DNA from: Pontiella desulfatans
Lineage (GTDB): Bacteria > Verrucomicrobiota > Kiritimatiellia > Kiritimatiellales > Pontiellaceae
Assembly (NCBI RefSeq): GCF_900890425.1
Contig: NZ_CAAHFG010000004.1
Coordinates: 664,330-728,329, forward strand
Reading direction: 5' to 3'
Length of the DNA stretch: 64,000 nucleotides
Part shown: in pieces, positions 28,075 to 49,442 of the stretch
Position numbering within the stretch: position 1 is the first letter of the stretch
Layout of the letters: each line of letters opens with the position of its first letter
The notes under the pieces: generated by a model
The model's input: only the letters and a program-made list of their open reading frames with translations
Database searches by the model: none
Told to the model about the DNA's origin: nothing
Program-made: the position numbers and the translations under genes

Positions 28075-28150
28075 GCCAATGTAGCTCAGCTGGTAGAGCA
28101 GCTCATTCGTAATGAGCAGGTCGTCCGTTCGAATCGGATCATTGGCTCCA
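28075..28150 (+). tRNA. tRNA-Thr (anticodon CGT)
   Basis: All 76 bases fold as a cloverleaf. The acceptor arms are GCCAATG/CATTGGC, the D arm GCTC/GAGC, the anticodon arm GCTCA-TTCGTAA-TGAGC with CGT at the anticodon, and the T arm GTCCG-TTCGAAT-CGGAT. The CCA end is encoded. The 3' part from the anticodon arm onward is repeated at 49388, marking it as the integration site of the island. Confidence 0.97.
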
Positions 28151-28155
28151 CTCTT
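28101..28155 (+). repeat. attL: 55-bp direct repeat in the tRNA-Thr gene
   Basis: From the anticodon stem through CCA plus five bases (CTCTT), this sequence is identical to 49388-49442. The tRNA gene is kept whole on this side. Confidence 0.95.
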
Positions 28156-29104: not shown

Positions 29105-31246
29105 ATGGCGCAGTTAGAGAATATTGAGGCGATTGAGAAGCGGTTGTGGAGTGCGGCGGATTTGCTGCGTACAGGCTCCAACTATGCGAGTAATGAATAT
29201 TTTATGCCGGTGATGGGCTTGGTGTTTCTGCGTCATGCCTATAGCCGCTTTCTGAATGTGAAGGATGATATTGTGGCCTCATTGCCGAGCCGGGGCGGGA
29301 AGACGCGGGATTTGACGAAGGCGGACTTTTCGCAGAAGGGGGCGATCTTTCTTCAGGAGAAGGCGCAGTTTGACTATCTGGTGTCGCTGTCGGACGACAA
29401 AGACCGTGCGGCTGCGGTGGTGGAGGCGATGGAGTCCATCGAGGCGGACTATGAAACGCTTTCGGGCGTGCTGCCGAAGGCGGAATACCACGAGCTGGAT
29501 AACGAGGTGCTGGGCACGCTGCTGCGCACCCTGAACCCGGACGAGCTGAAAAAGGCTTCGGGCGACATCTTCGGGCGCATCTATGAATATTTCCTGACGC
29601 AGTTTGCCAACGACAAGGCGCATGACGGCGGGGAGTTTTTTACCCCGGTTTCGCTGGTGTCGCTGATTGCCCATGTGCTGGAGCCGGAGCGGGGCAGCGT
29701 GCTTGATCCGGCCTGCGGTTCGGGCGGCATGTTTGTGCAGAGCGCGAAGTTTGTGGAGCAGATGAAGGCCAACCCTTCGGAGCGGCTGACCTTCTACGGG
29801 CTGGAAAAGAATCCAACCACGATCCGGCTGGGCAAGATGAACCTTGCCGTGCATGGGCTGGAGGGCGACATCCGCAAGGCGATTTCCTACTATGAAGACC
29901 CGCACGAGCTGCTGGGCAAGGCCGACTATGTGATGGCCAACCCGCCGTTCAATACCGACGAGGTGGACGCGGAAAAGGTGAAGCGCGACCCGCGTTTGCC
30001 GTTTGGCCTGCCGGGCGTGAACAAGAAGGAGAAGGTTTCCAACGGCAACTATCTGTGGATTTCCTATTTCTATAGCTACCTGAGCGAAAAGGGACGGGCG
30101 GGCTTTGTGATGTCGTCGCAGGCATCGAGCGCAGGCGGCGAAGAGGCCAAGGTGCGGCAGAAGTTGATTGAGACGGGTGCGGTTGAGGCGATGATTGATG
30201 TGCGTGGCAACTTTTTCTATACCCGCTCCGTGCCGTGTCAGCTCTGGTTCTTCAACAAGGACAAACCCGCCGAGCACAAGGACAAGGTGCTGATGGTCGA
30301 TGCCCGCAACGTCTACCGCAAGGTAACGCGCAAAATCTTCGACTTTACCCCGGAGCAGGAAAAGAACCTCAACTCCATCTTCTGGCTCTACCGTGGGCAG
30401 AATGAGCGGTTTATTGAGCTGGTGCAGTCGTATGTGGATCAGGTGTTGAACGAGGCGCATAGCTGCTTTGTGAATCAGGGCAACACGGTATCTGCGTCCG
30501 AGCCGTTGCCGGATTTCATCAAGGCGGTCAATAAGTTGTTTGATGCTATGAAGCCGTTTTTAGATTCGCTGCCGGAAGACGGGGCACAGGCCGAAACGGA
30601 TTCCGAGCTGAGGAAAGCACTCGGTGATTTGGACAACCATGTCGGCGCATATGATGGATTGCGACAGGATACTCAGAAGCAATGGAACGAATCGGATTCT
30701 AATACAGTCAAGGAACTGCACTTTTTTGCCGATGAACAGAGCAGCCCAGCTCTATTGGCCGAGGGCAGTCGCGATCTGGTGAAGCTGGCCGACCATGCCT
30801 ATAAGTTGGCGACGCGTTTGATTGAGCTGTGCGAAAAGGAATTGGATGCCAAGAGTTCCGACCTTTGGAAAAGTGCCGAGATCAACGGGGCACGGAAATC
30901 CAACCTTCGGAAAGAGGCGGAGGCAGCGCGGAAGGATGCGGTCGAGCAGTTGAAGCGGGTGCGTTATTTTTATAAGCAGGCGCATTGGCTGCTGTCGCGC
31001 TTTCCTGATGGCGAGCTGCGCGATGTGGAGGGGCTGGTTAAGCTGGTGAATCACACCGAGTTGGCTTCCAATGATTGGAGCCTCACGCCGGGGCGGTATG
31101 TCGGCGTTGCCCCGGAAGAGGTGGACGAGGATTTTGATTTTGAAGAAGCCCTGCGCGATATCCATGTGGAGCTGGCCGGACTTAATGAAGAAGCCGTTGA
31201 TTTGGCCGCGAAAATTGCCCGTAACTTTGAGGAGCTGGGGGTATGA
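29105..31246 (+). CDS. hsdM: Type I restriction system DNA methyltransferase subunit
   Basis: The 713-residue protein has an N-terminal helical domain, then the N6-adenine methyltransferase core with DPACGSGGMF (Asp200; SAM binding) and NPPF (Asn279; catalytic). The C-terminal region ends TPGRYVG...VDLAAKIARNFEELG, as expected for HsdM that docks on HsdS. It is longer than most HsdM proteins (about 500). Residues about 455-640 form a helical insertion with lower GC content than the flanking parts. HsdM methylates adenine and, with HsdS and HsdR, forms the restriction complex. The end overlaps hsdS by four bases (ATGA). Confidence 0.96.
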   Translation: MAQLENIEAIEKRLWSAADLLRTGSNYASNEYFMPVMGLVFLRHAYSRFLNVKDDIVASLPSRGGKTRDLTKADFSQKGAIFLQEKAQFDYLVSLSDDKDRAAAVVEAMESIEADYETLSGVLPKAEYHELDNEVLGTLLRTLNPDELKKASGDIFGRIYEYFLTQFANDKAHDGGEFFTPVSLVSLIAHVLEPERGSVLDPACGSGGMFVQSAKFVEQMKANPSERLTFYGLEKNPTTIRLGKMNLAVHGLEGDIRKAISYYEDPHELLGKADYVMANPPFNTDEVDAEKVKRDPRLPFGLPGVNKKEKVSNGNYLWISYFYSYLSEKGRAGFVMSSQASSAGGEEAKVRQKLIETGAVEAMIDVRGNFFYTRSVPCQLWFFNKDKPAEHKDKVLMVDARNVYRKVTRKIFDFTPEQEKNLNSIFWLYRGQNERFIELVQSYVDQVLNEAHSCFVNQGNTVSASEPLPDFIKAVNKLFDAMKPFLDSLPEDGAQAETDSELRKALGDLDNHVGAYDGLRQDTQKQWNESDSNTVKELHFFADEQSSPALLAEGSRDLVKLADHAYKLATRLIELCEKELDAKSSDLWKSAEINGARKSNLRKEAEAARKDAVEQLKRVRYFYKQAHWLLSRFPDGELRDVEGLVKLVNHTELASNDWSLTPGRYVGVAPEEVDEDFDFEEALRDIHVELAGLNEEAVDLAAKIARNFEELGV

Positions 31247-32457
31247 GTTTTCGTTCCGGGGCAATAAAGGATTATGCTCTTGGCATATACGATGGGCCGC
31301 ACGCGACACCAAAGGAGTCCGATGACGGACATATTTTCTTAGGGATAAAGAACGTTACGCCTGATGGGCGGTTGGATTTTTCCGACATTAAATATGTTTC
31401 AGATCAAGAGTTCCCTCGATGGACGAAGCGCGTAACACCAACGGCTGGCGACGTTGTATTTTCGTATGAAGCAACGCTTCATCGTTACGGAGTAATTCCT
31501 GAAGGCTTCGATGGATGCTTAGGCCGGAGGATGGGACTAGTCCGCCCCGACCCAAAGAAACTCCTGTCACGCTATCTCCATTTCTATTTTCTCTCTCCAG
31601 GCTGGAAGTCGTATGCGGATACGAAGGTCATCGTCGGCGCAACGGTGAATCGTCTTCCAATAAAAGATTTCCCTGACTTTGAGGTAAAGTTCCCACCATT
31701 GGAAGTACAGCAGCGCGTGGTTGATGTTCTGGGAGCCTACGACGATCTGATAGAAAACAATCGGCGGCGGATTGCGTTGCTGGAGGAGTCGGCGCGGCTG
31801 CTGTACAAGGAGTGGTTTATCCATCTGCGCTTCCCCGGCCATGAGCAGGTCAAGGTGGTCGATGGCGTGCCGGAGGGGTGGAAGAAAGGAATTATATCTG
31901 ACTTTTTCGATAGTACCTCTGGGGGCACACCGAGTCGAAAAGTTCCCGAATACTACACGGGAGATATTAACTGGGTTAAGACTCAAGAGCTTAATGAACT
32001 TTTCATTTTAGAGGCAGATGAAAAAATAACGGAAGAGGCTATTTCTAAATCTGCCGCAAAGTTGTTTCCGGTCGGAACCCTCCTTGTTGCAATTTATGGA
32101 GGAACAAATATTGGGCGAACAGGATTGTTGGCCGCCCCGTCAGCATCCAATCAAGCATGTGTTGCGTTCTTTCCGAGACGGAGGCTGGAAGACAATTTAT
32201 TTCTTCAAAAATGGGTGCAGGAACATAGGGAATATCTAATTGGCCTGTCGCAAGGTGCGGCTCAGACGAATATTAGTCAACAAACGCTGAAGGCGCTCGA
32301 CTTTATAATGCCAAAGCATTCCATGCTGGATGAATTTATCGACTACATCTTGCCTATCTATGACCAGATAAAAAATATAGTGGCTCAAAACCGAAAATTG
32401 GCTGAAGCCCGCGACCTATTACTTCCCCGCCTGATGAATGGAGAGATTGAGGTATGA
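31243..32457 (+). CDS. hsdS: Type I restriction system specificity subunit
   Basis: The 404-residue protein has two target recognition domains (about 1-150 and 215-365). A conserved helical spacer separates them (DLIENNRRRIALLEESARLLYKEWF) and a second conserved helix follows at the C-terminus (KNIVAQNRKLAEARDLLLPRLMNGEI). The two recognition domains set the bipartite DNA target. The recognition-domain DNA is AT-rich while the spacer DNA (about 31740-31880) is GC-rich like hsdM and hsdR, a sign of domain exchange. It overlaps both neighbours by four bases. Confidence 0.95.
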   Translation: MSFRSGAIKDYALGIYDGPHATPKESDDGHIFLGIKNVTPDGRLDFSDIKYVSDQEFPRWTKRVTPTAGDVVFSYEATLHRYGVIPEGFDGCLGRRMGLVRPDPKKLLSRYLHFYFLSPGWKSYADTKVIVGATVNRLPIKDFPDFEVKFPPLEVQQRVVDVLGAYDDLIENNRRRIALLEESARLLYKEWFIHLRFPGHEQVKVVDGVPEGWKKGIISDFFDSTSGGTPSRKVPEYYTGDINWVKTQELNELFILEADEKITEEAISKSAAKLFPVGTLLVAIYGGTNIGRTGLLAAPSASNQACVAFFPRRRLEDNLFLQKWVQEHREYLIGLSQGAAQTNISQQTLKALDFIMPKHSMLDEFIDYILPIYDQIKNIVAQNRKLAEARDLLLPRLMNGEIEV

Positions 32458-35400
32458 GCGCGTACACCGAAGATACCCTAGTGCAGCAGACGACGGCAGA
32501 CTATCTGCGCGATGATCTGGGGTGGCGTTCGGTGTTGGCCTATAACCATGAGACCTTTGGCGCGGGCGGTTTGCTGGGGCGGGAGAACGACAAAGAGGTC
32601 ATTCTAAAGCCGTTGCTTCGGGAAAAGCTGGAGGAATTGAATCCGGACTTGCCGGAGCTGGCGTATCAGGATGCGGTGCGGCAGGTGGTCGAGTCGATGA
32701 TCAGTCAGACGCTGTTTTCGACAAACCGCGAAAAGTATGAACTGCTACGCAACGGGGTGCGGGTGGCTTTCCGCAATGACCAGGGCGAGCAGAAGAAGCA
32801 GACACTGCGGGTGTTTGATTTTGATGAGCCGACGGAAAACGATTTCCTCTGCGTTCGCGAGCTGTGGGTGCGGGGCGATCTTTACCGCAGGCGGGCGGAT
32901 ATTATTGGTTTTGTGAACGGGATTCCGCTGTTGTTTGTGGAGTGCAAAAATGTGCACCGCGATCTGGAGGTGGCGTTCCGTGAAAATCTGGCGGACTATA
33001 AGGATACGATTCCGCATCTGTTCCACCATAACGCGATTGTGATGCTGGGCAACGGCATTGAGGCGAAGGTGGGGACGATTACGAGCCAGTATAACCACTT
33101 TGCGGATTGGAAGCGCCTTGAGGAGGATGAGCCGGGCGTAGTGGACATGGAGACGCTGCTGAAGGGTATCTGCGATAAGCGCAATTTCATGGACTTGATC
33201 GAGAATTTTATCCTGTTCGATGATTCGACGGGCAAGGCGGTTAAGATTCTCGCCCGCAACCATCAGTTCCTTGGGGTGAACCGTGCGATTGAGTCGGTGG
33301 AGCAGCGGGAGGAGCGCGAGGGCAAGCTGGGGGTGTTCTGGCATACGCAGGGATCGGGCAAGAGCTATTCGATGCTGTTCTTTACGCGCAAGGTGCACCG
33401 CAGGCTGGGCGGCAACTTTACGTTTGTGATCCTGACCGACCGGGATGACCTTGACGGGCAAATCTATAAGACCTTCGCGGGGTGCGGCGTGGTGAATAAT
33501 GACCGCGATCCATGCCGGGCGGCGAACGGGAAGCATCTGGAACGGTTGCTGGGGCAGCACAAGTCGTATGTGTTCTCGCTGATCCAGAAGTTTAATCAGG
33601 ATGTGGAAGAAGATGCGTTCTATTCGGAGCGCGACGATGTGATTGTGATTACGGACGAGGCGCACCGCACCCAATACGGCACGCTGGCGCTGAACCTGCG
33701 CAATGCCTTGCCGAATGCGAGCTATATGGGCTTTACGGGTACGCCGCTGTTTTCGGATGACGAAATTACGCGGCGGGTGTTCGGGGAGTATGTTTCGACC
33801 TATGACTTCCAGCGGGCGGTGGAGGACGGCGCAACCGTGCCGCTCTATTATGATGCACGGGGCGAGCGGTTGAAAATCGCCACCAACGATTTGAACGAGC
33901 GGATTGCCGAGAAGCTGGAAGAGATTGAGTCCACCATGGATATCAATAAGAAGCAGCGGCTGGAGCAGGCGCTGAAGCAGGACTATCATATTATCACCGC
34001 TCACGAACGGCTGTCTCAGGTGGCCGAGGATTTTGTGGAGCATTATTCGACGGGCTGGGAAAGCGGTAAGGCGATGCTGGTGTGCATCGATAAGATTACC
34101 TGCGTGAAGATGCACGAGCTGATTTCCAAACGCTGGAAGGAACGCATTGAAGAGCTGAGCGCACTATTGCCTACCGCAAAGGATGAGCAGGATGAGCTTT
34201 ACCGCCTTCGTCAACTGGCATGGATGCAGGAAACGGAAATGGCCGTTGTGGTGAGCGAGGAACAGGGTGAGATGGAAAAGTTCCGCAAGTGGGACTTGGA
34301 TATTACCCCGCACCGCCGACTCATTAAGGAGGGATTCAGTATTCCCGAAAAGCTGCGCGACCGCCCGGAGTTCATGGGGATGCAGCATCTGGATATGGAT
34401 TCGGCTTTCAAGGAGCCTGCGCATCCGTTCCGCGTTGTGATTGTCTGCGCCATGTGGCTTACGGGCTTTGATGTACCGAGCCTTTCAACGCTCTATATCG
34501 ATAAGCCGCTTAAAGCACATACGCTGATGCAGGCGATTGCGCGGGCAAACCGCGTGAGCGAGGGCAAGAACAACGGCCTGATTGTGGACTACTGCGGGAT
34601 TCTGAAAAACCTGCGCAAGGCATTGGCTACGTTTGCGGGAGCGGGCGACGACGGACGCGGTGGCGGTGGCGGAGGTGCTGATCCGGGACGGCCTAAGGAA
34701 GAGCTGCTGGAGGAGCTGGGCGAGGCGATTGGTTTTGTCCGTTCGTTCCTTGATGAGCGCAACGCCCCGCTGGATGACATTAAGACCGCTACCGGCTTCG
34801 GACGCAACGCGGCGATTGTGAGGGCCAAGGAAGCGGCCAACGAAAACGATGAGAGCCGCAAGCGGTTTGAGATTATGTGCCGTGCGGTGTTCAAAAAGTT
34901 CAAGGCATGCATCAATGATCCGGGGGTGAATGCCTACCGCCCCGACCGCGATGCGATCAATGTGGTCTATAAGCATTTACAGAAGGACAAGGAGAGCGCG
35001 GACATCAGCGATATTATCCGCATCCTGCATGGGGTGGTTGATGAGGTGGTGGAAACCAAGCCTTCGGGATTTGGTAACGGCAAAGCCGATTATGAACCCT
35101 ACGATATCAGCAAGATTGATTTTGAGCGGTTGAGGCAGGAGTTTGAACGCAGCCCGGCCAAGAAAACGACGGTGCAGTGCATGAGTGATATGATTGAGCA
35201 GCGGCTTAAAAAAATGCTCGAACGGAATCCTCTGCGGACAGATATGCAGGCGCACTATGAAAAGATCATTGCCGAATACAATAGCGAGAAAAGCAGGCTG
35301 ACCATTGAGCAGACGTTTGCCGAGCTGCTGAAGAAAGTCCAGGAACTGGACGAAGAAGAAGACCGTGCTGTGCGGGAGGGACTGAACGAAGAGAGCCTTG

Positions 35401-35708
35401 CCATATTCGACCTGCTGAAAAAGCCGGAGCTTGGCGCGGCGGAGATCAAGCGCATTAAAGCCGTAGCCGAAGAGCTGCTGGAAACCCTCAAGGCCGAGGT
35501 GCTGAAAATTCACCATTGGCAGGAGAAGGAATCCACCCGCGATGCGGTAAGCATCACGATCCACAATTTCCTATATGACGGTGAGCACGGCTTGCCGGAA
35601 AATAGCTATACCGAAACCGATGTGAGCGACCTGACCTCTGCCGTCTACCGCCACATCTACCGCGCCTATCCAGAAGTGCCTTCGCCTGTTTATGGGGAGG
35701 TGGGGTGA
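32454..35708 (+). CDS. hsdR: Type I restriction system endonuclease/translocase subunit
   Basis: The 1084-residue protein has the N-terminal PD-(D/E)xK nuclease (ADIIGFVNGIPLLFVECKN; Glu163 and Lys165). The Walker A is GSGKS at about 300, the helicase motif II is DEAH at 401-404, followed by MGFTGTPLF, and the second RecA domain has DYCGILKNL and QAIARANRVSEG. A long C-terminal helical domain contacts the methylase. HsdR pumps DNA and cuts far from the target. The Gly-rich stretch near 34650 is a linker. The last base of the stop codon is also the first base of the next start (TGATG), so the downstream gene is coupled. Confidence 0.97.
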   Translation: MSAYTEDTLVQQTTADYLRDDLGWRSVLAYNHETFGAGGLLGRENDKEVILKPLLREKLEELNPDLPELAYQDAVRQVVESMISQTLFSTNREKYELLRNGVRVAFRNDQGEQKKQTLRVFDFDEPTENDFLCVRELWVRGDLYRRRADIIGFVNGIPLLFVECKNVHRDLEVAFRENLADYKDTIPHLFHHNAIVMLGNGIEAKVGTITSQYNHFADWKRLEEDEPGVVDMETLLKGICDKRNFMDLIENFILFDDSTGKAVKILARNHQFLGVNRAIESVEQREEREGKLGVFWHTQGSGKSYSMLFFTRKVHRRLGGNFTFVILTDRDDLDGQIYKTFAGCGVVNNDRDPCRAANGKHLERLLGQHKSYVFSLIQKFNQDVEEDAFYSERDDVIVITDEAHRTQYGTLALNLRNALPNASYMGFTGTPLFSDDEITRRVFGEYVSTYDFQRAVEDGATVPLYYDARGERLKIATNDLNERIAEKLEEIESTMDINKKQRLEQALKQDYHIITAHERLSQVAEDFVEHYSTGWESGKAMLVCIDKITCVKMHELISKRWKERIEELSALLPTAKDEQDELYRLRQLAWMQETEMAVVVSEEQGEMEKFRKWDLDITPHRRLIKEGFSIPEKLRDRPEFMGMQHLDMDSAFKEPAHPFRVVIVCAMWLTGFDVPSLSTLYIDKPLKAHTLMQAIARANRVSEGKNNGLIVDYCGILKNLRKALATFAGAGDDGRGGGGGGADPGRPKEELLEELGEAIGFVRSFLDERNAPLDDIKTATGFGRNAAIVRAKEAANENDESRKRFEIMCRAVFKKFKACINDPGVNAYRPDRDAINVVYKHLQKDKESADISDIIRILHGVVDEVVETKPSGFGNGKADYEPYDISKIDFERLRQEFERSPAKKTTVQCMSDMIEQRLKKMLERNPLRTDMQAHYEKIIAEYNSEKSRLTIEQTFAELLKKVQELDEEEDRAVREGLNEESLAIFDLLKKPELGAAEIKRIKAVAEELLETLKAEVLKIHHWQEKESTRDAVSITIHNFLYDGEHGLPENSYTETDVSDLTSAVYRHIYRAYPEVPSPVYGEVG

Positions 35709-37579
35709 TGAGCGACCAACGCTATCCCGAGGACTTGATTGTAACGGCAGATGATTTCCAGTCATCAGGGTGGGAGGCAGCTATTGATGGTGCGGAAGAC
35801 TACATGGACTATTGGCAAAAGCTTTCGCAGGTTGCTAGGGAGGCTATTGAGGCAGGAGAGAGCGCTAAGGGGAAAGTGCTATGGCTTATAGCAGATGCAT
35901 GCGCAATGGATTTCAATGCTTCAAGTATTCATAATCCGTTCGTTTCTCGATGTGGAATATCAGTTGAAATTGCAACGGCAATACCTGAAATATTCACTGC
36001 CGAGGATGTGAGTTTTTTTAACGGTGTCATCCCTCAAGTAGATGATTGCTTTATCAAAGCCCGGCTCGCTGATGTGCTTTGGCTAATCGAAATTCCTAAG
36101 AATCCTGCCAACGCATTCACAGCAATTGAGGCGTATCAACAATTCCCACTCGATCAAGATTCTCTCGTTCGTGATAGCGAGAGTGCGTGGGAGCGGGCTA
36201 TCCGCTTGTGCTATTTGCTGCGGAGAGGTTCTGAGGCTCATCTGGAAACAATTCGCGAAACATTATTTTCCAAACTTCAAGAACTTACATATGAGGGGCG
36301 CTACCAAGCTTTATGGATTGCTCAGTTACTTGGATTGGCATGTGTTGAAGTAGAGCAGTCAATAGTTGTATGTAATAAATTGGAAAGCATTGCTACGACG
36401 GCAAAAAATCAAAATGATTGGAATTGCACAAGGTCATACATAAAGCATTCGAGAGAGTGGCATACTAATTTTGATCGAATTGAAGAAAGCCGCGCGCTAA
36501 CAGTAGAAATTGCTGAGAGCTGGGCAGAAGAAGGTGCTGCCCGATCAGCGGAGTTTATCGCGGTAGGCCATTGCTATGAAAATGCAATCCACGAATATCG
36601 AACTCTTCCTAATCGATTCAGACGCGAAAATAATATTGTAGACCGCCTGACAGAATTAAGACGATTGCTGAACGAAGCTAATGCAAATGCTGTGGAAGAT
36701 ATGCAGGCAACCATGATTCCAGGCTGTGATATTAGTGAATCGATAGAGTCTGCCAGACAATTTGTGGAAGGAAGAGAATTTCCTGATGTAATACGTGCAT
36801 TCGTGAATATTTTTCAAGGAGCGGACGCCACCGCAATTCGAGCAACTGCTGAGCGTAATATGGGACGTTATGTTTTAAGCAGCCTCTTTGGCTCAACTCA
36901 TCTTACGCATGATGGACGAGTGCGTGCGCGCTCACCGGGGATTGATATTTCTGATGTCGCTAGCGCAAACACACAATTAGAACTCAGAGCAAGTATGGTG
37001 CAAAACTATAATTTGCATATCGATCTCGTTATGCAAGGAGCCATTATTCCAGCCTTCCATATTATTCAGGAGGAACACCGTTTTACGGAATACTTGATGC
37101 GCTCTCTTTGCTCCAGCTCTTCAGCAGTGCCGAAAGATAGAGTTAGCTTGTGGGCTAAAGGTTTATTGTTCGGCTTTGAGGAGGATTTTGCTGCTGCAAC
37201 CCATTTATTGGTTCCGCAAGTTGAGCATTTGGTGCGAGTTATTTTCAAGGAAAACGAAATCATCACAACTCGGCTTGATCCAGTATCTGGAATTGAAACC
37301 GAAAATGGTCTCGGAACTTTACTTGATAATCCGAGAGCGGCGGAAGTCTTGGGTGACAATATAGCTTTTGAGTTGAAAGTTCTACTGACGGATGAGTTTG
37401 GGGCAAATCTACGTAATCAGATAGCACATGGTCTTTTCAATGATGGAGCGGCAGCTTCCACTTTTTCTGTTTATGCATGGTGGTATTGCCTGAAGTTAGT
37501 AATTAACTCCATTCCTTGGCCGGATCGCATGCGTGAAGAAGATGCTGCTGAAGGCGGAGATGCAACAGAGCAGGAATAG
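35708..37579 (+). CDS. DUF4209 protein with HEPN-like RNxxxHG motif
   Basis: The 623-residue protein ends in a domain carrying RNQIAHG (Arg569 to Gly575), the RNxxxHG signature of DUF4209 and the R-x4-6-H arrangement of HEPN ribonucleases. The first 430 residues are helical (HEAT- or TPR-like in appearance) with no motif I can name. HEPN domains in defence systems cleave RNA when triggered; whether this one is catalytic is inferred. It is translationally coupled to hsdR, which suggests that it works with or guards the restriction enzyme. The DNA is clearly more AT-rich than hsdR, so the gene was probably acquired separately. Confidence 0.75.
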   Translation: MSDQRYPEDLIVTADDFQSSGWEAAIDGAEDYMDYWQKLSQVAREAIEAGESAKGKVLWLIADACAMDFNASSIHNPFVSRCGISVEIATAIPEIFTAEDVSFFNGVIPQVDDCFIKARLADVLWLIEIPKNPANAFTAIEAYQQFPLDQDSLVRDSESAWERAIRLCYLLRRGSEAHLETIRETLFSKLQELTYEGRYQALWIAQLLGLACVEVEQSIVVCNKLESIATTAKNQNDWNCTRSYIKHSREWHTNFDRIEESRALTVEIAESWAEEGAARSAEFIAVGHCYENAIHEYRTLPNRFRRENNIVDRLTELRRLLNEANANAVEDMQATMIPGCDISESIESARQFVEGREFPDVIRAFVNIFQGADATAIRATAERNMGRYVLSSLFGSTHLTHDGRVRARSPGIDISDVASANTQLELRASMVQNYNLHIDLVMQGAIIPAFHIIQEEHRFTEYLMRSLCSSSSAVPKDRVSLWAKGLLFGFEEDFAAATHLLVPQVEHLVRVIFKENEIITTRLDPVSGIETENGLGTLLDNPRAAEVLGDNIAFELKVLLTDEFGANLRNQIAHGLFNDGAAASTFSVYAWWYCLKLVINSIPWPDRMREEDAAEGGDATEQE

Positions 37580-40151: not shown

Positions 40152-40478
40152 ATGCCATTCACAAGATTACACCTGATTGAACGGATGGGGTTGGATGAGC
40201 CTTGGGAGGGGGAGCCGGGGTATACGAAAACGGGCTATTGGGCGTTTACCAAGGAGCAGGCAGAGTCCTTTGTCGGGTGCTTCCTTTTTCTGCATAAAGG
40301 TCAGTTGGAGCCCGCCCGATACGCTGGTGAGATTGTGGATGTGTTCCTACAGACGGAAGGGAAATATGTCAGTCGTTTTGTGTTCAAGGTGAAAGATGAA
40401 CCGCGACTGAATGGGATTGCGACCATGGTTGATGGCTGGGATCGATGGTGGAAAGCGGATGGATGGAGACAAGAATGA
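40152..40478 (+). CDS. Small acidic/aromatic protein of unknown function
   Basis: The 108-residue protein (MPFTRLHLIERMGLDEPWEG...) has no motif I recognise. It is Trp-rich (WAF, WDRWWKADGW) and probably an alpha/beta domain. GGAGAGATAGAC precedes the ATG, and its stop overlaps the next start as ATGA, so it is translated with the DUF4268 nuclease gene and may be its partner or inhibitor. It ends the accessory set in the same direction as the restriction genes. Confidence 0.7.
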   Translation: MPFTRLHLIERMGLDEPWEGEPGYTKTGYWAFTKEQAESFVGCFLFLHKGQLEPARYAGEIVDVFLQTEGKYVSRFVFKVKDEPRLNGIATMVDGWDRWWKADGWRQE

Positions 40479-41464
40479 GTTTGGGTAGATTGGAAAAAGT
40501 TGAGTTGCGGGATGTGTGGAAAACGGAGGCGCAGGATTTTACGCCTTGGCTGGCGAAGGAGGATAATCTTGCTTTACTGGGTAATACCATTGGCCTCGAC
40601 CTTGAATTGGAAGCGGTTGAAAAGAATGTGGGTGCGTTCAGGGCGGACATCCTTTGCAAGGATACTGCTACCAATGCCTGGGTGTTGGTGGAAAATCAAG
40701 TGGAGCGTACCGACCATACCCACCTTGGGCAGCTGCTAACCTATGCAGCTGGTCTGAACACCGTGACGATCGTATGGATTGCAAAACGCTTCACCGATGA
40801 ACACCGCGCAGCGTTGGATTGGCTGAATGAGGTGACTGGGGATGATATTAATTTCTTCGGGATTGAAATTGAGCTGTGGCGCATTGGTGAGTCAGCCATT
40901 GCCCCGAAGTTCAACATGGTATCGAAACCCAACGAGTGGACAAAAGGAAAGGGTGGAACCTCGGCTGTTGTATCATCGGAGAAGGAGTTGTCGCCTACCC
41001 GGAAATTGCAGTTGGAGTTCTGGCAACTGTTCCGGGAATATATGGAGGACAACAGCTCCATTATGCGTCCGCAAAAACCAAACCCCTGTCATTGGATGAA
41101 TTTCAGCATAGGAACAAGCAAGGCTTTTCCTGCCGCTTTGCTGAACATGCAATCGGGTCTTATTTCAATAAGCTTGCAGATCAATAAGGGCGAAGACCGT
41201 TTCGCAATTTTCAATTTACTCAAGCAGGACAAGGTTGCTATTGAAGAAGAAATGGGTGCTGCTTTGGATTGGGAGGAAAAACCGGAGAATAAGTGCAGTT
41301 ATGTATTCTTGCGAAACCCCCAACTTGATCCGAAGAAAAAGAACGATTGGCCAATGCAGCACCAATGGCTGCTGGAAAATCTTGAAACGTTCCATGCCGT
41401 TTTCTCTTCCCGCATTAGGGATATGGACACGGGCGATTGGCAACCGGATGATGACGGGGAATGA
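40475..41464 (+). CDS. DUF4268-type PD-(D/E)xK nuclease-like protein
   Basis: The 329-residue protein has a clear nuclease core: FRADILCKDTATNAWVLVENQ (Asp58, Glu73, Gln75 as the D...ExQ variant), then RTDHTHLGQLLTYAAGL. The C-terminal half, with KLQLEFWQLFREYME, matches the DUF4268 domain. These proteins commonly occur beside restriction loci; their substrate is not established. The replacement of Lys by Gln is usual in this family. It is the last gene of the operon, followed by a long GC-rich stretch with no coding sequence. Confidence 0.82.
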   Translation: MSLGRLEKVELRDVWKTEAQDFTPWLAKEDNLALLGNTIGLDLELEAVEKNVGAFRADILCKDTATNAWVLVENQVERTDHTHLGQLLTYAAGLNTVTIVWIAKRFTDEHRAALDWLNEVTGDDINFFGIEIELWRIGESAIAPKFNMVSKPNEWTKGKGGTSAVVSSEKELSPTRKLQLEFWQLFREYMEDNSSIMRPQKPNPCHWMNFSIGTSKAFPAALLNMQSGLISISLQINKGEDRFAIFNLLKQDKVAIEEEMGAALDWEEKPENKCSYVFLRNPQLDPKKKNDWPMQHQWLLENLETFHAVFSSRIRDMDTGDWQPDDDGE

Positions 41465-41793
41465 TAAGCCCGGCGTAGGGGCTATATTTCCGCACCCATC
41501 TCTATTGCCCCCCGTCCCCTCTCCCAGGGAAAAGTTCCAATGTCTGGAAGACCCACTTGCCCCGCAGGGCAGCCGCTGGGTGGCCGTTCCGTAGCGCGAT
41601 ACTGGAGAACCTGAGCGCGTGGAACTACTTCTCGGGCGGGGGCCGGGGCGTGACCAGCAAGCTTGCGAGATGGGCGCGCTTTGGCCGGGTGGGCGGGGGA
41701 TGCGGTGGCCGGAGGCGATAGCCGGAAGCCCCCGCAACCACGGCCGCCCCGCCCGCCCTGTAGGTGTGGCATGAATTTGACACCGACACGAGC

Positions 41794-41889
41794 CAAGCTC
41801 GCATAATGACTTGTTATGTTGGGTGGTTGAAATTCTGATTTCCAAAACCCACTGAACATAATCAAGCATTATGCGGGTTTGCGAGCTTG
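41794..41889. repeat. 96-base imperfect inverted repeat with bulges
   Basis: Left blocks CAAGCTCG, CATAATG, TTATGTT and GGTGGTT pair in order with right blocks AACCCACT, AACATAA, CATTATG and CGAGCTTG, separated by short unpaired bulges and a loop of about 16 bases. On the minus strand it contains CATAACAAGTC, similar to the conserved end of integron attC sites, but the opposite end does not fit. Confidence 0.6.
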
Positions 41890-43068
41890 CCCCCCGCCAG
41901 CGCGACCTTGGGAACGATGCCGGTGGCAGCAGGGAAGCATGGGACGTGCGAGGAACGAACCGCCCCTTGATTCCGAACTATCAGGGAGAACGCGCAGCGG
42001 GCGATGGAACAACCCGGCAAATTTTGCAGAGCGTTTCCGGCCACTCGGGGAGTCAGTCCGATAATCGTGCATCGGAGATGCCGCAGGCTCACGATTATTC
42101 GTACTGACCCCACTCGCTGAAAGCGGAAACGTGGCGAAACTGCCGCCGGGGTGCGGCCGAAGGCTCCATAGCCCCGCAGGGCAGGCCGTAGGCCACCGGA
42201 GGGAGTCCGCCCGGGAAGGTGATGCGACATCGAAGCATGACCTTTCCGGATCAGCGGGCGACCGGAGTAGGTAGAGCGCTTGAGCCGGGTTTGCGTGGAG
42301 CTCCCCGTAGGGCGAAGGCCGGGCAGGCTGGCGGGATCAGGCGATGATGCTTCCGAGCGCCGCGAAGGATAGCATCAGCGCCCCCGCCTTGGCTGGCCGG
42401 CGAGCGGAATGCAAAGGCGGCTGAAGCGCGACGTGGCGGTAATAGCCGCCACCCACACCGCGCTGACAAAGGAGAATTTGTGAAGGAAGCTGAATGAGGA
42501 GACCGGGAACGGACAGCGCCTTCCGGAATCATCGATCCCGGCTACAGCGACCGAACAAAGGACGGGGTGGAACCCGACCCTCCACTTGGCGGCGCTGGGA
42601 GTGGACGGATCGACGATTGAAGCTGGATGAACAATTTCTTCTTTGGCACTAAGCGCGGCGTACATCCCCCCGTTGCGGGGGGCTTGGGGGGTAACACGAA
42701 GCAGCGCGAGGTGAACTTTGTGGATGACGGTGAGCAAAGGGATGCAGGACGGCCATCGTAGATGATGTGGCCTGCTCCCGTCGCGAACCGGAAGGAACAA
42801 AGGGCGCCTGGCGGTGCGGCGTAGGTCAGCTGGAAACGTGACCGTGTTCTGCGTAGCAGGTTCTGAGCGCGTTTGCTGCGTAGGAGTGGGCAGAAAAGCA
42901 GGATGGCCGATATGCATTGTATTCCCAACTGCCGTGAACTGTACTCTTGATTCCGGTCTTTTTCGGCGTATGGTCATGACTTAATAAAACAGATAAAGAC
43001 AATTTAGCATCAGAAGTATAGTCGCTCTTCAGAAATCGCCAGTTTCAATACACGCGAGCGAACCATGC

Positions 43069-43097
43069 GGAGGATGCGCCCACTCGGGCGCGCCTCC
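43069..43097 (+). promoter_or_regulatory. Hairpin in the leader of the Sel1 gene
   Basis: GGAGG and GCGCCC pair with GGGCGC and CCTCC around an ACTC loop. Outside it CACGCGA and TCGCGTG can add a longer stem. It lies about 100 bases before the ATG and has no following T run, so it looks like a leader structure and not a terminator. Confidence 0.55.
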
Positions 43098-43197
43098 TGT
43101 GTTGTGTTCGCGTGTGGGCTCTGGCGAGCCTCTGGAGGGCATGGCCGGGGGGTTGCGCCTCTTTTTTGTGCCACGGGATATAACCGCAGGGGATCAT

Positions 43198-44562
43198 ATG
43201 AAAAAAACAGCATTCTTGATAGCAACCATCGCCCTACTCGGACTTCCTCTCTTGAGCTTTGCGGCTGACGACATCGCAACGCTTCAGCAAAAGGCCGAGC
43301 GTGGGGATGCAGAGGCTCAATGTTCTTTGGGCTCATTGTACTATGAGGGCAGCGGTGTATTGCAAAGCTATGAAGATGCCGCAAAGTGGTATCAGCTATC
43401 TGCCACACAAGGAAATGCGGAAGCACAGTTCCTACTGGGTCTATGCTATTCCCTTGGTTCTGGTGTTCCCAAGAGTAAGGAATTAGCGGGAGAGTGGTGG
43501 CATAAAGCCGCTGAGCAAGGACACGAGCGAGCACGAGACTGGTGGGATATAAACTTTGGGAACGAGAAAGAATTTTACGCGAGAACATTTGCTGACCCAG
43601 AGGCGGCAGAAAAACAGATTAGTTCTATTGCAGAAAGAATTGGTGCTCTCAACAGGCAAGAGTTGTTCACTGCCGCCGAAAATGGAGATCCAGAAGCCCA
43701 GTATGAATTGGCTGGACTTTATCGTGATGGGAAGGTGTTCGAAAAAGATCGCGACAAAGCCATAAAATGGTATCGGCTGGCGGCAGCACAACAACACAAA
43801 GAAGCATTGTTCGCCCTCGGCCTTATCTACTCGACATCTATGCAGGGGGGAGATGAGTCTGAAGCCACAGTTTATTTTAAACAAGCTGCTGAAGCAGGCC
43901 ACACGGTAGCTCGGCGTATGATGGGCGCATTTTGCTACGAAGGGAGTTTGGTTCCACAAGATTATAAAAAAGGAGCTCGCTGGTTCCATTTGGCCGCTCT
44001 TGATGGCGATATGTTATCCCAACATTGTATTGGTCTGGCTTATCTATATGGAAAAGGAGTGCCACAAAATTCCTCAAAAGCAACTGCATGGTTTATAAAA
44101 GCGGCGGAGCAGGGAGACGTCAAATCACAGCGCTTTCTAGGGCATATCTACCGAGATGAGAAGACAGCAGCCGGGATCTCGCAGAACTACACAGAAGCGA
44201 TAAGGTGGTATCTTAAGGCGGCTGAACAAGATGATCTAGAAGCTCAAATGGGGCTCATATTGATTTTTTCGGAATTGGAGGAGTTTGATAAGGCGATCCC
44301 ATTTGCAGAAAAGCTTGCCAGAAAAGGGGTAAAAGAGGCTCAATATTTATTAGGGAGTGCATATGCCTTTGGAAAAGGCGGCTTAAAAAAGGATTTGGTT
44401 CAAGCCTATGCTTGGTTGAATGTTTCGGCAGCATTGGGACATGAAGGTGCGGCGGAGCTTCGAAGTGAATGCGCCATAGAAATGTCTATTGCTCAACTAG
44501 AAGAGGCTCAGCGTATTTCCAAGGAATACTACAAAAAATATGCCCACCCGATTGACTATTAA
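43198..44562 (+). CDS. Exported Sel1-repeat protein
   Basis: The ATG at 43198 has AGGGGATC upstream and gives a signal peptide (KKTAFLIATIALLGLPLLSFA). The 454-residue protein holds about nine Sel1-type (TPR-like) repeats, for example AEAQCSLGSLYYEGSGV, AEAQFLLGLCYSLGSGV, DMLSQHCIGLAYLYGKGV and KEAQYLLGSAYAFGKGG. These helical repeats bind other proteins and organise complexes, often in the periplasm or outside the cell. It is separated from the defence operon by 1.7 kb and has its own leader. Its link to the island's other cargo is unknown. Confidence 0.88.
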   Translation: MKKTAFLIATIALLGLPLLSFAADDIATLQQKAERGDAEAQCSLGSLYYEGSGVLQSYEDAAKWYQLSATQGNAEAQFLLGLCYSLGSGVPKSKELAGEWWHKAAEQGHERARDWWDINFGNEKEFYARTFADPEAAEKQISSIAERIGALNRQELFTAAENGDPEAQYELAGLYRDGKVFEKDRDKAIKWYRLAAAQQHKEALFALGLIYSTSMQGGDESEATVYFKQAAEAGHTVARRMMGAFCYEGSLVPQDYKKGARWFHLAALDGDMLSQHCIGLAYLYGKGVPQNSSKATAWFIKAAEQGDVKSQRFLGHIYRDEKTAAGISQNYTEAIRWYLKAAEQDDLEAQMGLILIFSELEEFDKAIPFAEKLARKGVKEAQYLLGSAYAFGKGGLKKDLVQAYAWLNVSAALGHEGAAELRSECAIEMSIAQLEEAQRISKEYYKKYAHPIDY

Positions 44563-44990: not shown

Positions 44991-46220
44991 TCAGGGCTCG
45001 GAGGGAGCGGGATGGGATAAAATCCATTCATAAACAGCAGCTTTACCTCTTATCAAATTTCCATTCCGGTCGGTATGGTGGCGAGTCCCTGGTTGTATCC
45101 GCCTGAGTATGCCTGCCGAAATAAACTTCTCGATTAGGCGGGCCACTTGTTGGGTATCAAGTCCCATTCGGTAACCGGTGTACGTTTGGGGTATCCCAAG
45201 GGTGCGGCCTTCGCTGCACTCGCAGAGCGATAGCCCCCGGCAAATCCGGAAGAAGGTTTGTTCCCGTTCATCACGGTTGTCATAAAAGGATCGTTCTCGT
45301 TCGCTCAATCTTTCTGGATAGCTTCGCATCATTCCGTTGTAGTGGGCGCGTGCGTCTTTCATGTGCCGCTCCAATGTGTCCTCGAACACATTTGCATGAA
45401 GCCGGTAGAAAAGCTCTGCAAAGGACATGGCGACTTCTTCACAAACTGAATCGAAGGCGAAGGTAACAAGAGCAACCAGTTCGGTATTGCGGCGGCCTTG
45501 CTCGGCGGAGACTCGGTGGGCTATCAGTTTTTTGTAGAGACGGGCAATTTCCGGGGAGGTCGTTTTGAGTTCATGCCATGCTTGACAGGCTCCCTCGTTT
45601 TCTCCCCTTGTGGTTCCCCTAAAAGAAGACTCTTCTCTATCTCTATGACATTGCCTTTCCTTTATGACATCTTGCCTGGCTATCCAATCGGTCAATGTTT
45701 TCAGGGGTATTCGCGAATTTGTGGCCTCCACTTTCTGGTCTGTTCTTTGGTCTCCGTCACTACGCACACCAAACGGCAACCTTGAGAAGCTTATTCGGTT
45801 GGTCAGTGGCTTCGGATCGGCTTTTGGGAAAATCAGCAAAAGGTCTCTTGCTATTCGCTCCCAAGTGATGGAATCGACATCTTCTTCTAGCCGAATGTAG
45901 GTATGGATCGACTTGCCGCCAGAAAACACCCGCAAGGTATGCGGCGTATCATCGAGCCGCCACATATCGCGCTGATGGGTAATCGGCATTTTTTCATCAT
46001 GTTCAATGACCCAAGTATGCAGACGGACAATGTTGTCGCGGCGGCGGGTGCTACCGGCAGAGAACGAGTTGCCGATGCAAAACTGCTTCTTTGGCTGTAC
46101 CGTAATTTTGCGAGCTAGGCGCATAGGCTTCTTCTCATACACGGTGTCGGCCAGTAGAATGTACTCATCATCATCCCACAACAGGCGGCGAACCTTAATC
46201 CAGTCGCTGGGTGTTTGCAT
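44991..46220 (-). CDS. Primase-like replication protein (archaeo-eukaryotic primase type)
   Basis: The 409-residue protein has features of an archaeo-eukaryotic-type primase. VRLHTWVIEHDEKMP is a possible metal-binding acidic motif, FSGGKSIHTYIRL fits the conserved S-x-H motif II, and NRISFSRLPFGVRSDG follows. A charged helical middle and a C-terminal winged-helix segment (QQVARLIEKFISAGILRRIQPGTRHHTDRNGN) resemble DNA-binding wings of replication proteins. Integrative elements often carry such enzymes for self-replication or primer synthesis. The catalytic residues are assigned by eye only. Confidence 0.6.
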   Translation of the reverse strand: MQTPSDWIKVRRLLWDDDEYILLADTVYEKKPMRLARKITVQPKKQFCIGNSFSAGSTRRRDNIVRLHTWVIEHDEKMPITHQRDMWRLDDTPHTLRVFSGGKSIHTYIRLEEDVDSITWERIARDLLLIFPKADPKPLTNRISFSRLPFGVRSDGDQRTDQKVEATNSRIPLKTLTDWIARQDVIKERQCHRDREESSFRGTTRGENEGACQAWHELKTTSPEIARLYKKLIAHRVSAEQGRRNTELVALVTFAFDSVCEEVAMSFAELFYRLHANVFEDTLERHMKDARAHYNGMMRSYPERLSERERSFYDNRDEREQTFFRICRGLSLCECSEGRTLGIPQTYTGYRMGLDTQQVARLIEKFISAGILRRIQPGTRHHTDRNGNLIRGKAAVYEWILSHPAPSEP

Positions 46221-47889: not shown

Positions 47890-49263
47890 TTAACCTTGGG
47901 CTGTCAGTTCATCTCGTATTTCTTCCCAGCTTTTAGCGGTCATGCTCTTAAGCTTTTCGAGTGCCCACTTGGGCAAGGGCTCCTTATTCTCTGGGGCTTG
48001 GATGAAGCCTTTGTTTCCGTTGGGGAGGGCGTGGGGGATGTTAGCGGCCAAGGATGCAACTAGTTTTTCATCGAAGGCGGTATAGTGGTCGATCATTTGT
48101 TCCGAAGTGTGGCCTGTGATTTTCATTATGAGGGCATCGGGGAAGCCAGCCAGCCGGGCAATGGTGACAAAGGAGTGCCGCAGGCTGTGCGCCCCGGTTT
48201 CGACTATGGCTTGTCCCGTTTTTATGTCCGTCTCTTTGTGTGCGTTCAGTTTGGCGGCATCAAAGATTTTGCGGATTCGTTTCGTGATGGCCGACCTGTC
48301 GCGGTCGTAGGCTTCCACGAGTTCGGGAAGGACGTAGCGGCCATTGTGCATGATGCTTTGCAGTTCTTCCCTCAACTGGGGAAGGATAGGGATATAGACC
48401 TGCTTGCCTGTGCGCTTGGCGGTCTTGGCGGGGGTAAGGGTTATGATGTTCTTTTCGTAGTCGATTTCCTTCCATTGGAGCTTTACGCCGTCCACAAGGC
48501 GCTGTCCGGTACATACAAGAATGATTAGAAGCGTCCTATAGTCACCCTCTGCCTTCTCAATGACCTTGTTGACTTCCTCCAAGGTCAATGCCCGCTTTTT
48601 CCGGATCGTGGCTTCTGCCTTGATGTTTTTGCGCTGTATGCCCGTTCTGCTCTTCTTGTCCCAAGCAAATGGATTCTGCGTGGTGCGGGCTTTCTTTTCG
48701 AGCACAGCCCAGACCATGGCCAAGGAGTTCAAATAGATGTTGAACGATGAAGGGGATAGCTTTTTTGATTCCAGATGGTCGGCATAGGCTTCGGCATGCT
48801 CTGTGCCGACTTCCCTCAACTCTTTGACATCGGGATAGCTCTCCTTTATCCAGTCATGGAAGGCACTAATGCAGGCCTCATAGCGGTGCAAGGTGCGTTC
48901 CCCGGATTTTGGGCGGTTGTGGGCTTTCTTGTATTCAGTCCAGGCATCGGCAATGCGGAGTGCTGGTTTTGCATCAATGATTCGTGCGGTCTCGCCCTTT
49001 GCGGCTTGAAGCATGGCCTCCAACTGACGCTCTGCATTCTCTGCTTGCAAAGGGGCTACAATGCGCATCTGCGCTTCTACTGCCTCTTCCTTGGTGTAGA
49101 GCTTGTTGCCGTGTTCGTCGGTGAGGCAAACCTTCTTCCGCTTGCCGTTGATTTTATACTCTAGATAATAGGGTGCCTTGACCTTTGACCCGGCAGGCAG
49201 TTCCTTACCGTTGCTGCGTTTGTAGAGTCTGCCAAGACCCTTCTTGGTTCTCGTCGCTGTCAT
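47890..49263 (-). CDS. Tyrosine recombinase (island integrase)
   Basis: The 457-residue protein has an N-terminal arm and core-binding domain and a catalytic domain with the tyrosine recombinase residues: Arg in CTGQRLVDGVKL, His and Arg in GAHSLRHSFVTIARLAG, His in TGHTSEQMIDHY and the final Tyr of that motif. GGAGG stands just before the ATG. It lies 124 bases inside attR, the standard position for a tRNA-targeting integrase. It should catalyse integration and excision at the 55-bp tRNA-Thr repeat. Confidence 0.95.
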   Translation of the reverse strand: MTATRTKKGLGRLYKRSNGKELPAGSKVKAPYYLEYKINGKRKKVCLTDEHGNKLYTKEEAVEAQMRIVAPLQAENAERQLEAMLQAAKGETARIIDAKPALRIADAWTEYKKAHNRPKSGERTLHRYEACISAFHDWIKESYPDVKELREVGTEHAEAYADHLESKKLSPSSFNIYLNSLAMVWAVLEKKARTTQNPFAWDKKSRTGIQRKNIKAEATIRKKRALTLEEVNKVIEKAEGDYRTLLIILVCTGQRLVDGVKLQWKEIDYEKNIITLTPAKTAKRTGKQVYIPILPQLREELQSIMHNGRYVLPELVEAYDRDRSAITKRIRKIFDAAKLNAHKETDIKTGQAIVETGAHSLRHSFVTIARLAGFPDALIMKITGHTSEQMIDHYTAFDEKLVASLAANIPHALPNGNKGFIQAPENKEPLPKWALEKLKSMTAKSWEEIRDELTAQG

Positions 49264-49387: not shown

Positions 49388-49442
49388 GCTCATTCGTAAT
49401 GAGCAGGTCGTCCGTTCGAATCGGATCATTGGCTCCACTCTT
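49388..49442 (+). repeat. attR: 55-bp direct repeat of the tRNA-Thr 3' half
   Basis: This is identical to 28101-28155 but lacks the 5' half of the tRNA, so it does not encode a tRNA. It marks the right end of the island. Confidence 0.95.

Follow-up and report, generated by a model that had tools for sequence, protein, structure and literature searches.

The window analysed here is a 64,000-nucleotide stretch of Pontiella desulfatans DNA that contains an integrated island of 21 kb, bordered by 55-bp att direct repeats identical to each other. These repeats, together with a tyrosine integrase gene beside attR, bear out the initial annotation's placement of the stretch 41465-43197 within an island. 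The features of the locus are as follows:

28101-28155, + strand: attL, the 3' part of a tRNA-Thr gene (28075-28150) plus 5 bp.
29105-35708, + strand: the M, S and R genes of a type I restriction-modification system, carried as island cargo.
35705-37579, + strand: candidate defence protein PDC-S39 (DUF7380/DUF4209), island cargo.
40445-41464, + strand: candidate defence protein PDC-S11 (DUF4268), which stops 66 bp before RNA A.
41531-42891, + strand: RNA A, interpreted from its diverged copies, fold z and kept consensus pairs as an orphan copy of a phage RNA that is large and structured.
41535-41549, unstranded: palindrome TTCCAATGTCTGGAA at the 5' edge of RNA A, a possible operator.
41546-41764, + strand: 5' domain of RNA A, from alignment A3 of 10 copies (G-U 46 versus A-C 3 on the + strand).
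41794-41889, + strand: long AT-rich hairpin module of RNA A, swapped for a different module in some copies.
42042-42117, unstranded: inserted palindrome GTCAGTCC...GTACTGAC, found elsewhere in other Kiritimatiellia genomes (L041, L014).
42163-42490, + strand: central domain of RNA A, with 94 consensus pairs, 9 of them with double changes.
42527-42619, unstranded: inserted hairpin of repeat-like character around GGACGGGGTGGAACCCG, which relatives carry at dispersed sites (G036, G008, G031).
42625-42891, + strand: 3' domain of RNA A, carrying the conserved element CCCCCC-GTTGC-GGGGGG-CTTG-GGGGGG.
42998-43170, + strand: RNA B, a putative leader of ~170 nt with a small 5' hairpin, a long covarying hairpin and a terminator-like hairpin with a T-run.
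43198-44562, + strand: Sel1-repeat protein gene behind RNA B (Sel1, 7 stretches; signal-peptide-like N-terminus).
44991-46220, - strand: 409-aa protein, weakly primase-like (E 0.0055).
47890-49263, - strand: island tyrosine integrase (Phage_integrase 1.9e-17), adjoining attR.
49388-49442, + strand: attR, the 55-bp identical direct repeat.

The island combines an integrase with att repeats at a tRNA gene and contains no structural phage genes. Homologues of terL, polA, the DUF5906 primase and the neighbouring phage genes described below were sought in the window, and none were found. Between 35705 and 40478, the proteins that follow PDC-S39 matched only PHROGs without assigned function. A distant relative of the 409-aa protein (in genome G166) adjoins a DUF5906-type helicase match; the structure prediction for the island protein gave a mean pLDDT of 35, so its primase nature remains a weak hint. 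The att repeats, integrase, weak primase-like gene and defence cargo, along with the lack of any structural phage gene found, suggest that the island is satellite-like.

The stretch 41465-43197 had been described as a single structured, noncoding segment of 1.7 kb. It is noncoding and folded, but these coordinates fuse two unrelated elements, 41531-42891 and ~42998-43170. Block A (41531-42891) is common to a set of repeat copies; block B (42998-~43170) is absent from those copies and has relatives of its own. On comparison with other genomes, the stretch appears to comprise two previously undescribed RNA families, termed RNA A and RNA B.

The ends of RNA A were set from where similarity stops, giving a length of ~1.4 kb in the window and of 1.3-1.7 kb as aligned among copies. 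Several diverged copies, ~80% identical, are present in the same Pontiella genome and in relatives. Those in its own genome lie on contigs C3 and C4 and are partly rearranged, and contig C4 both starts and ends inside RNA A copies; contigs usually end inside repeats upon assembly. Further copies, often at contig ends, were found in same-genus relatives, namely Pontiellaceae bacterium B12227 (G016) and Pontiella sulfatireligans F21 (G021). The palindrome at 42042-42117 is not a constant part of RNA A. A search of plasmid and phage record collections with the stretch 41465-43197 returned no match.

GC content across 41531-42891 is 0.627, in agreement with the GC-rich character originally noted; the flanking island genes have 0.497, and the chromosome beyond the island has 0.571. 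The motif CCCCG(C/T)AGGGC, reported there as recurring three times, has exactly three copies in the whole 64-kb window (41560, 42172 and 42303); shuffled sequences predict 0.05 copies, and 0 of 100 shuffles reached three. A small GCCC-loop-GGGC hairpin is possible at each motif copy. Indels between RNA A copies are mostly of 1 nt, and mismatches lack a three-base period. Reverse-strand ORFs of 300-350 aa are present in the copies, and the long reverse-strand ORFs align between copies only over short pieces. The view that no protein frame is convincing was thereby upheld, and coding pseudogenes, which had been named as one finding that would overturn a structured RNA, were not revealed by comparison of the copies. 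A coding pseudogene on either strand was ruled out by the one-base indels and the absent periodicity. A promoter scan gave three weak sites near 41424-41488, which is weak evidence.

RNA A in the window has a fold z of -7.6 for the + strand and of -3.3 for the - strand, and a coding control of equal length has z ~0 on both strands. Three prophage or viral copies gave z ~-10 on the + strand and weaker values on the other; L167, a distant relative, folds strongly on both strands. If the RNA is read from the + strand, G-U cells should exceed A-C cells on that strand more than on the other; in the three domains the ratios were 31:4, 37:8 and 46:3 on the + strand compared with 15:16, 9:9 and 31:14 on the - strand. 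Within the central domain, 97% of cells keep pairing over the 94 pairs, and 15 double-change cells were counted, compared with 4.6 in shuffled and 0-3 in slid alignments; double changes are few here because the copies are close. In the three domains of the window copy, 94.1%, 98.6% and 96.9% of the consensus pairs are kept, a level similar to that of prophage copies. The element CCCCCC-GTTGC-GGGGGG-CTTG-GGGGGG is nearly invariant (window 42665-42692, L045 9952-9982), and its C-run could pair with either G-run, a possible switch. A lone fragment resembling the 3' domain was also detected at L168 7931-8099 (genome G018; 68.8 bits), and the tested phage genes are not nearby. Taken together, we conclude that block A specifies a large structured RNA, modular in build and encoded on the + strand, as judged from covariation and predicted folding.

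Genes found beside the RNA A copies encode a sigma70-region-4-like protein, a primase-helicase of the DUF5906 type, a family A DNA polymerase and the large subunit of terminase (terL). Gene order is kept in viral contigs and other genomes: polymerase, primase, sigma-like gene, a gap of ~1.5-3.8 kb, terL and the next two phage genes. RNA A lies between the sigma-like gene and terL, on the strand opposite to terL, in 12 of the 12 prophages or viral contigs with both neighbours (L031, L033, L045, L046, L047, L158, L159, L160, L162, L203, L220 and L228), some of which are cut by contig ends or have one gene undetected. L204 and L208, in which only terL and the RNA were identified and terL is more distantly related, also have the module described below 5' of terL on the opposite strand, so that this arrangement holds at all 14 loci with terL and the RNA. 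When the part shared with the window was searched without that module, it was found again in several other prophages, with E values from 1e-3 to 4e-6. Model R1 had no match at L049, L050 and L053, three loci whose terL relatives are more distant. A first DNA pattern run on viral contigs found nothing; a gapped motif pattern matched four viral contigs, one of them new. The RNA is thus encoded at phage or prophage loci with terL, polA and primase, and the window copy itself lies outside any prophage. These results establish the normal home of RNA A as a family of Kiritimatiellia prophages, in which it lies between the sigma-like gene and terL and is read opposite to terL.

Arrays of 2-8 sites resembling TTCCAATGTCTGGAA are found upstream of RNA A in several prophages; none was found in L033 and one in L162. 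Palindrome arrays of the TTCCNNNNNNTGGAA type, located between terL and the RNA A 5' end (L158 6582-6840, L032 6467-6690, L027 8050-8400 and L160), are possible operator or replication sites. In a rearranged prophage (L028 6746-13709), two opposed RNA A copies flank broken terL pieces.

The best conserved piece of RNA A is a 95-nt segment, module M, of the form GGGGCUGGCGCG-stem-UGC...GCA-stem-CGUGACAGCUAUGGGG, which is absent from the window copy and from L031. Within the class, its covariance model matched 20 of 288 genomes, which belong to ten families. Outside the class it is nearly nil: among 387 genomes, the matches were 12 class genomes and one borderline case. Double-change cells numbered 94, compared with 28 in shuffled and 12-20 in slid alignments, in an alignment that leans to the model; an alignment made without structure gave 85, compared with a shuffled mean of 26 and maximum of 39. 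Module M alone is uninformative for strand (G-U versus A-C 4:4 on + and 9:4 on -). Twelve of the 34 module M sites listed fall less than 1 kb from a contig end, and copies are therefore probably undercounted. In other bacterial families, the 95-nt module was the only part by which a locus was identified, and several of these loci adjoin ordinary chromosomal genes, where phage genes were not found. At L167 9412-11127 (genome G052), five module-M-like hairpins occur within 1.7 kb (z ~-18 on both strands), as if module M had been multiplied inside one RNA.

Diverged RNA A copies also occur in elements that combine an integrase with a primase and lack a terminase (L209, L210, L212, L213 and L027); the island around the window copy has an integrase and no phage structural genes. 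In genomes G338 and G350, module M is located beside genes for a tyrosine integrase and for a primase that combines CHC2 and Toprim domains; the G338 primase has a helicase-like end. L027 contains an integrase, a primase, a sigma-like gene and the RNA, without terL.

RNA B is unrelated to RNA A. The first five relatives, folded singly, all formed one common long hairpin, with energies of -69 to -99 kcal/mol, and the RNA B model was built from these agreeing single folds; RNAalifold on the first alignment, in which stems were misaligned, gave a different consensus. The model matched the long hairpin in the window at 43021-43144. It was found in 102 of 240 Kiritimatiellia genomes, at 1 to 9 copies each, and across the phylum in 56 of 288 genomes, other classes included. 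Among 25 copies, 30 of 42 pairs had double changes, and double-change cells numbered 187 in an alignment fitted to the model, compared with 59 shuffled and 26-38 slid. Nearly all sampled copies are followed by a CGCGCC-type stretch and then a T-run, and in many the left arm of a terminator-like hairpin is the end of helix P1. A start codon often follows within ~80 nt. An integron attC origin of the hairpins was dropped on inspection by eye; RNA B copies are scattered and not in arrays.

RNA B thus has conserved structure before a start codon and a terminator overlapping an alternative helix, the overlap being read from sequence and folds. The long hairpin and terminator would share one strand, the GAGGC-type end of P1, and should for that reason be mutually exclusive; RNA B would then switch transcription of the Sel1 gene on or off upon some signal. 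Of the sampled downstream proteins, 11 of 25 belong to one exported-looking family, and 14 fall outside this main family. RNA B could also be a free small RNA rather than a leader. We favor the view that RNA B looks like a new attenuator-type leader. It resembles attenuators and riboswitches in its long-hairpin leader, in the terminator that overlaps the hairpin and in a T-run just ahead of the start codon. It differs in lacking an Rfam match and any known ligand or sensing domain, and in its wide spread through Kiritimatiellia and other classes. If confirmed, it would represent a regulatory leader that is common throughout a bacterial phylum and has no Rfam entry.

The account that best explains the whole stretch, and which we consider probable, is that RNA A is a structured RNA at home in phages that acts as a folded RNA and that RNA B is the leader of the Sel1 gene. 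A long transcript of RNA A would be made once the element becomes active. By analogy with GOLLD and ROOL, its folded form would most likely serve the lytic cycle as a large particle, made either of RNA or of RNA and protein. The claim of a long structured RNA in the initial annotation is strongly supported by covariation, the + strand G-U excess, fold z and phage homologues at a fixed place. Its suggested tie to the defence genes is unsupported, since the RNA A relatives studied sit in prophages and integrase-primase elements, and we find no evidence linking either RNA to those genes. Nor is there support for relics of lost cassettes as such, the piece being an orphan copy of a phage RNA. The retention of RNA A by terminase-less elements suggests a process, for instance replication or packaging, to which every genome must bring a copy of its own, a narrower reading that we think rather unlikely.

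A more specific possibility is that RNA A, or the DNA encoding it, serves packaging or replication and that terminase-less islands carry it for replication or packaging by a helper phage. The invariable position 5' of terL on the opposite strand, the retention of the RNA in integrase-primase elements and the integrase, att sites and weakly primase-like gene of the window island are all compatible with such a role. Adjacency to terL is no proof of packaging by itself, however, a trans-acting RNA need not travel on a satellite, and known packaging signals are far shorter than RNA A; we regard this role as rather unlikely. An extended form, in which RNA A would be a kilobase-size, giant-pRNA-like packaging or replication RNA captured by terminase-less defence islands for spread via helper phages of the same host, seems to us unlikely. 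Missing module M and interrupted by two inserted palindromes, the window copy could be inactive, and it may or may not still be functional. Whether it is a dead prophage remnant, retained by chance after capture by the island, is doubtful but deserves serious consideration: its orphan state fits, and rearranged relatives such as L028 exist, but the consensus pairs are kept at prophage levels, and differences from the nearest copies are partly compensating changes.

Two further explanations concern the nature of block A itself. Palindromic sites alongside RNA A, and inverted repeats that fold on both strands, could point to a DNA element (an origin, a cos or pac site, or a hairpin array). This is improbable given the G-U excess, which is absent or much smaller on the - strand, and the finding that the + strand was the better folder in every copy tested. 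A decayed coding sequence or group II intron relic is hardly tenable. It would account for the long reverse-strand ORFs, and group II introns are reported from phages (PMC12350094), but the one-base indels and missing three-base period argue against coding. No Rfam group II match was obtained in the region even at E 10, and RNA A at the phage loci lies between genes rather than inside one. A folded RNA whose home is in phages remains the preferred reading of block A.

If so, a further large phage RNA family, fixed beside terL and present in elements without structural genes, would make function testable by comparison, the question being what a phage and an integrase-primase element share that requires RNA A.

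We know of few very large structured RNAs from phages and of none with an established function. The comparison with GOLLD, ROOL and HEARO proposed at the outset was run against Rfam models. Neither the window nor 10 related loci gave any match at gathering scores, and GOLLD, ROOL, HEARO and OLE were sought in the region up to E 10 without a hit; the only weak matches, to MIR8001 and RydC, were far under their thresholds. RNA B likewise had no Rfam match. The phi29 packaging RNA (pRNA) is a ring-forming RNA of ~174 nt, and RNA A would resemble it only if the packaging reading were right, as a phage RNA required for packaging. A phi29-type pRNA match was absent from the window and the 10 related loci, and a packaging role for RNA A is hypothetical.

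GOLLD and ROOL are large phage or prophage RNAs that form RNA cages and whose function is not established (PMC12286853). Like RNA A, GOLLD is large, elaborately folded, encoded by phages or prophages and variable in its 5' part (PMC12286853). It differs in size (~800 nt, compared with 1.3-1.7 kb for RNA A as aligned), and RNA A has no Rfam match to it, is located beside terL rather than near tRNA islands and also occurs in integrase-primase elements. The tRNA-island neighbourhood typical of GOLLD and ROOL was not seen: the window has one tRNA, 13 kb away, and the 10 related loci together have one. ROOL is likewise a large phage or prophage RNA (PMC12286853) and includes, in the classification of that paper, the lncRNA of a Lactobacillus salivarius megaplasmid (PMC5643018); RNA A has no Rfam match to it, is unrelated in sequence, is larger and has another neighbourhood. 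For both phage ICP1 and its PLE satellites, the transcript present at the highest level is predicted to be non-coding (PMC7567579). These RNAs belong to other phages and hosts and show no sequence relation to RNA A, and the PLE RNA lies between inverted repeats. RNA A resembles GOLLD and ROOL in its working at most and is a member of neither family; it is best read as a new family of large, ornate phage/satellite RNA.
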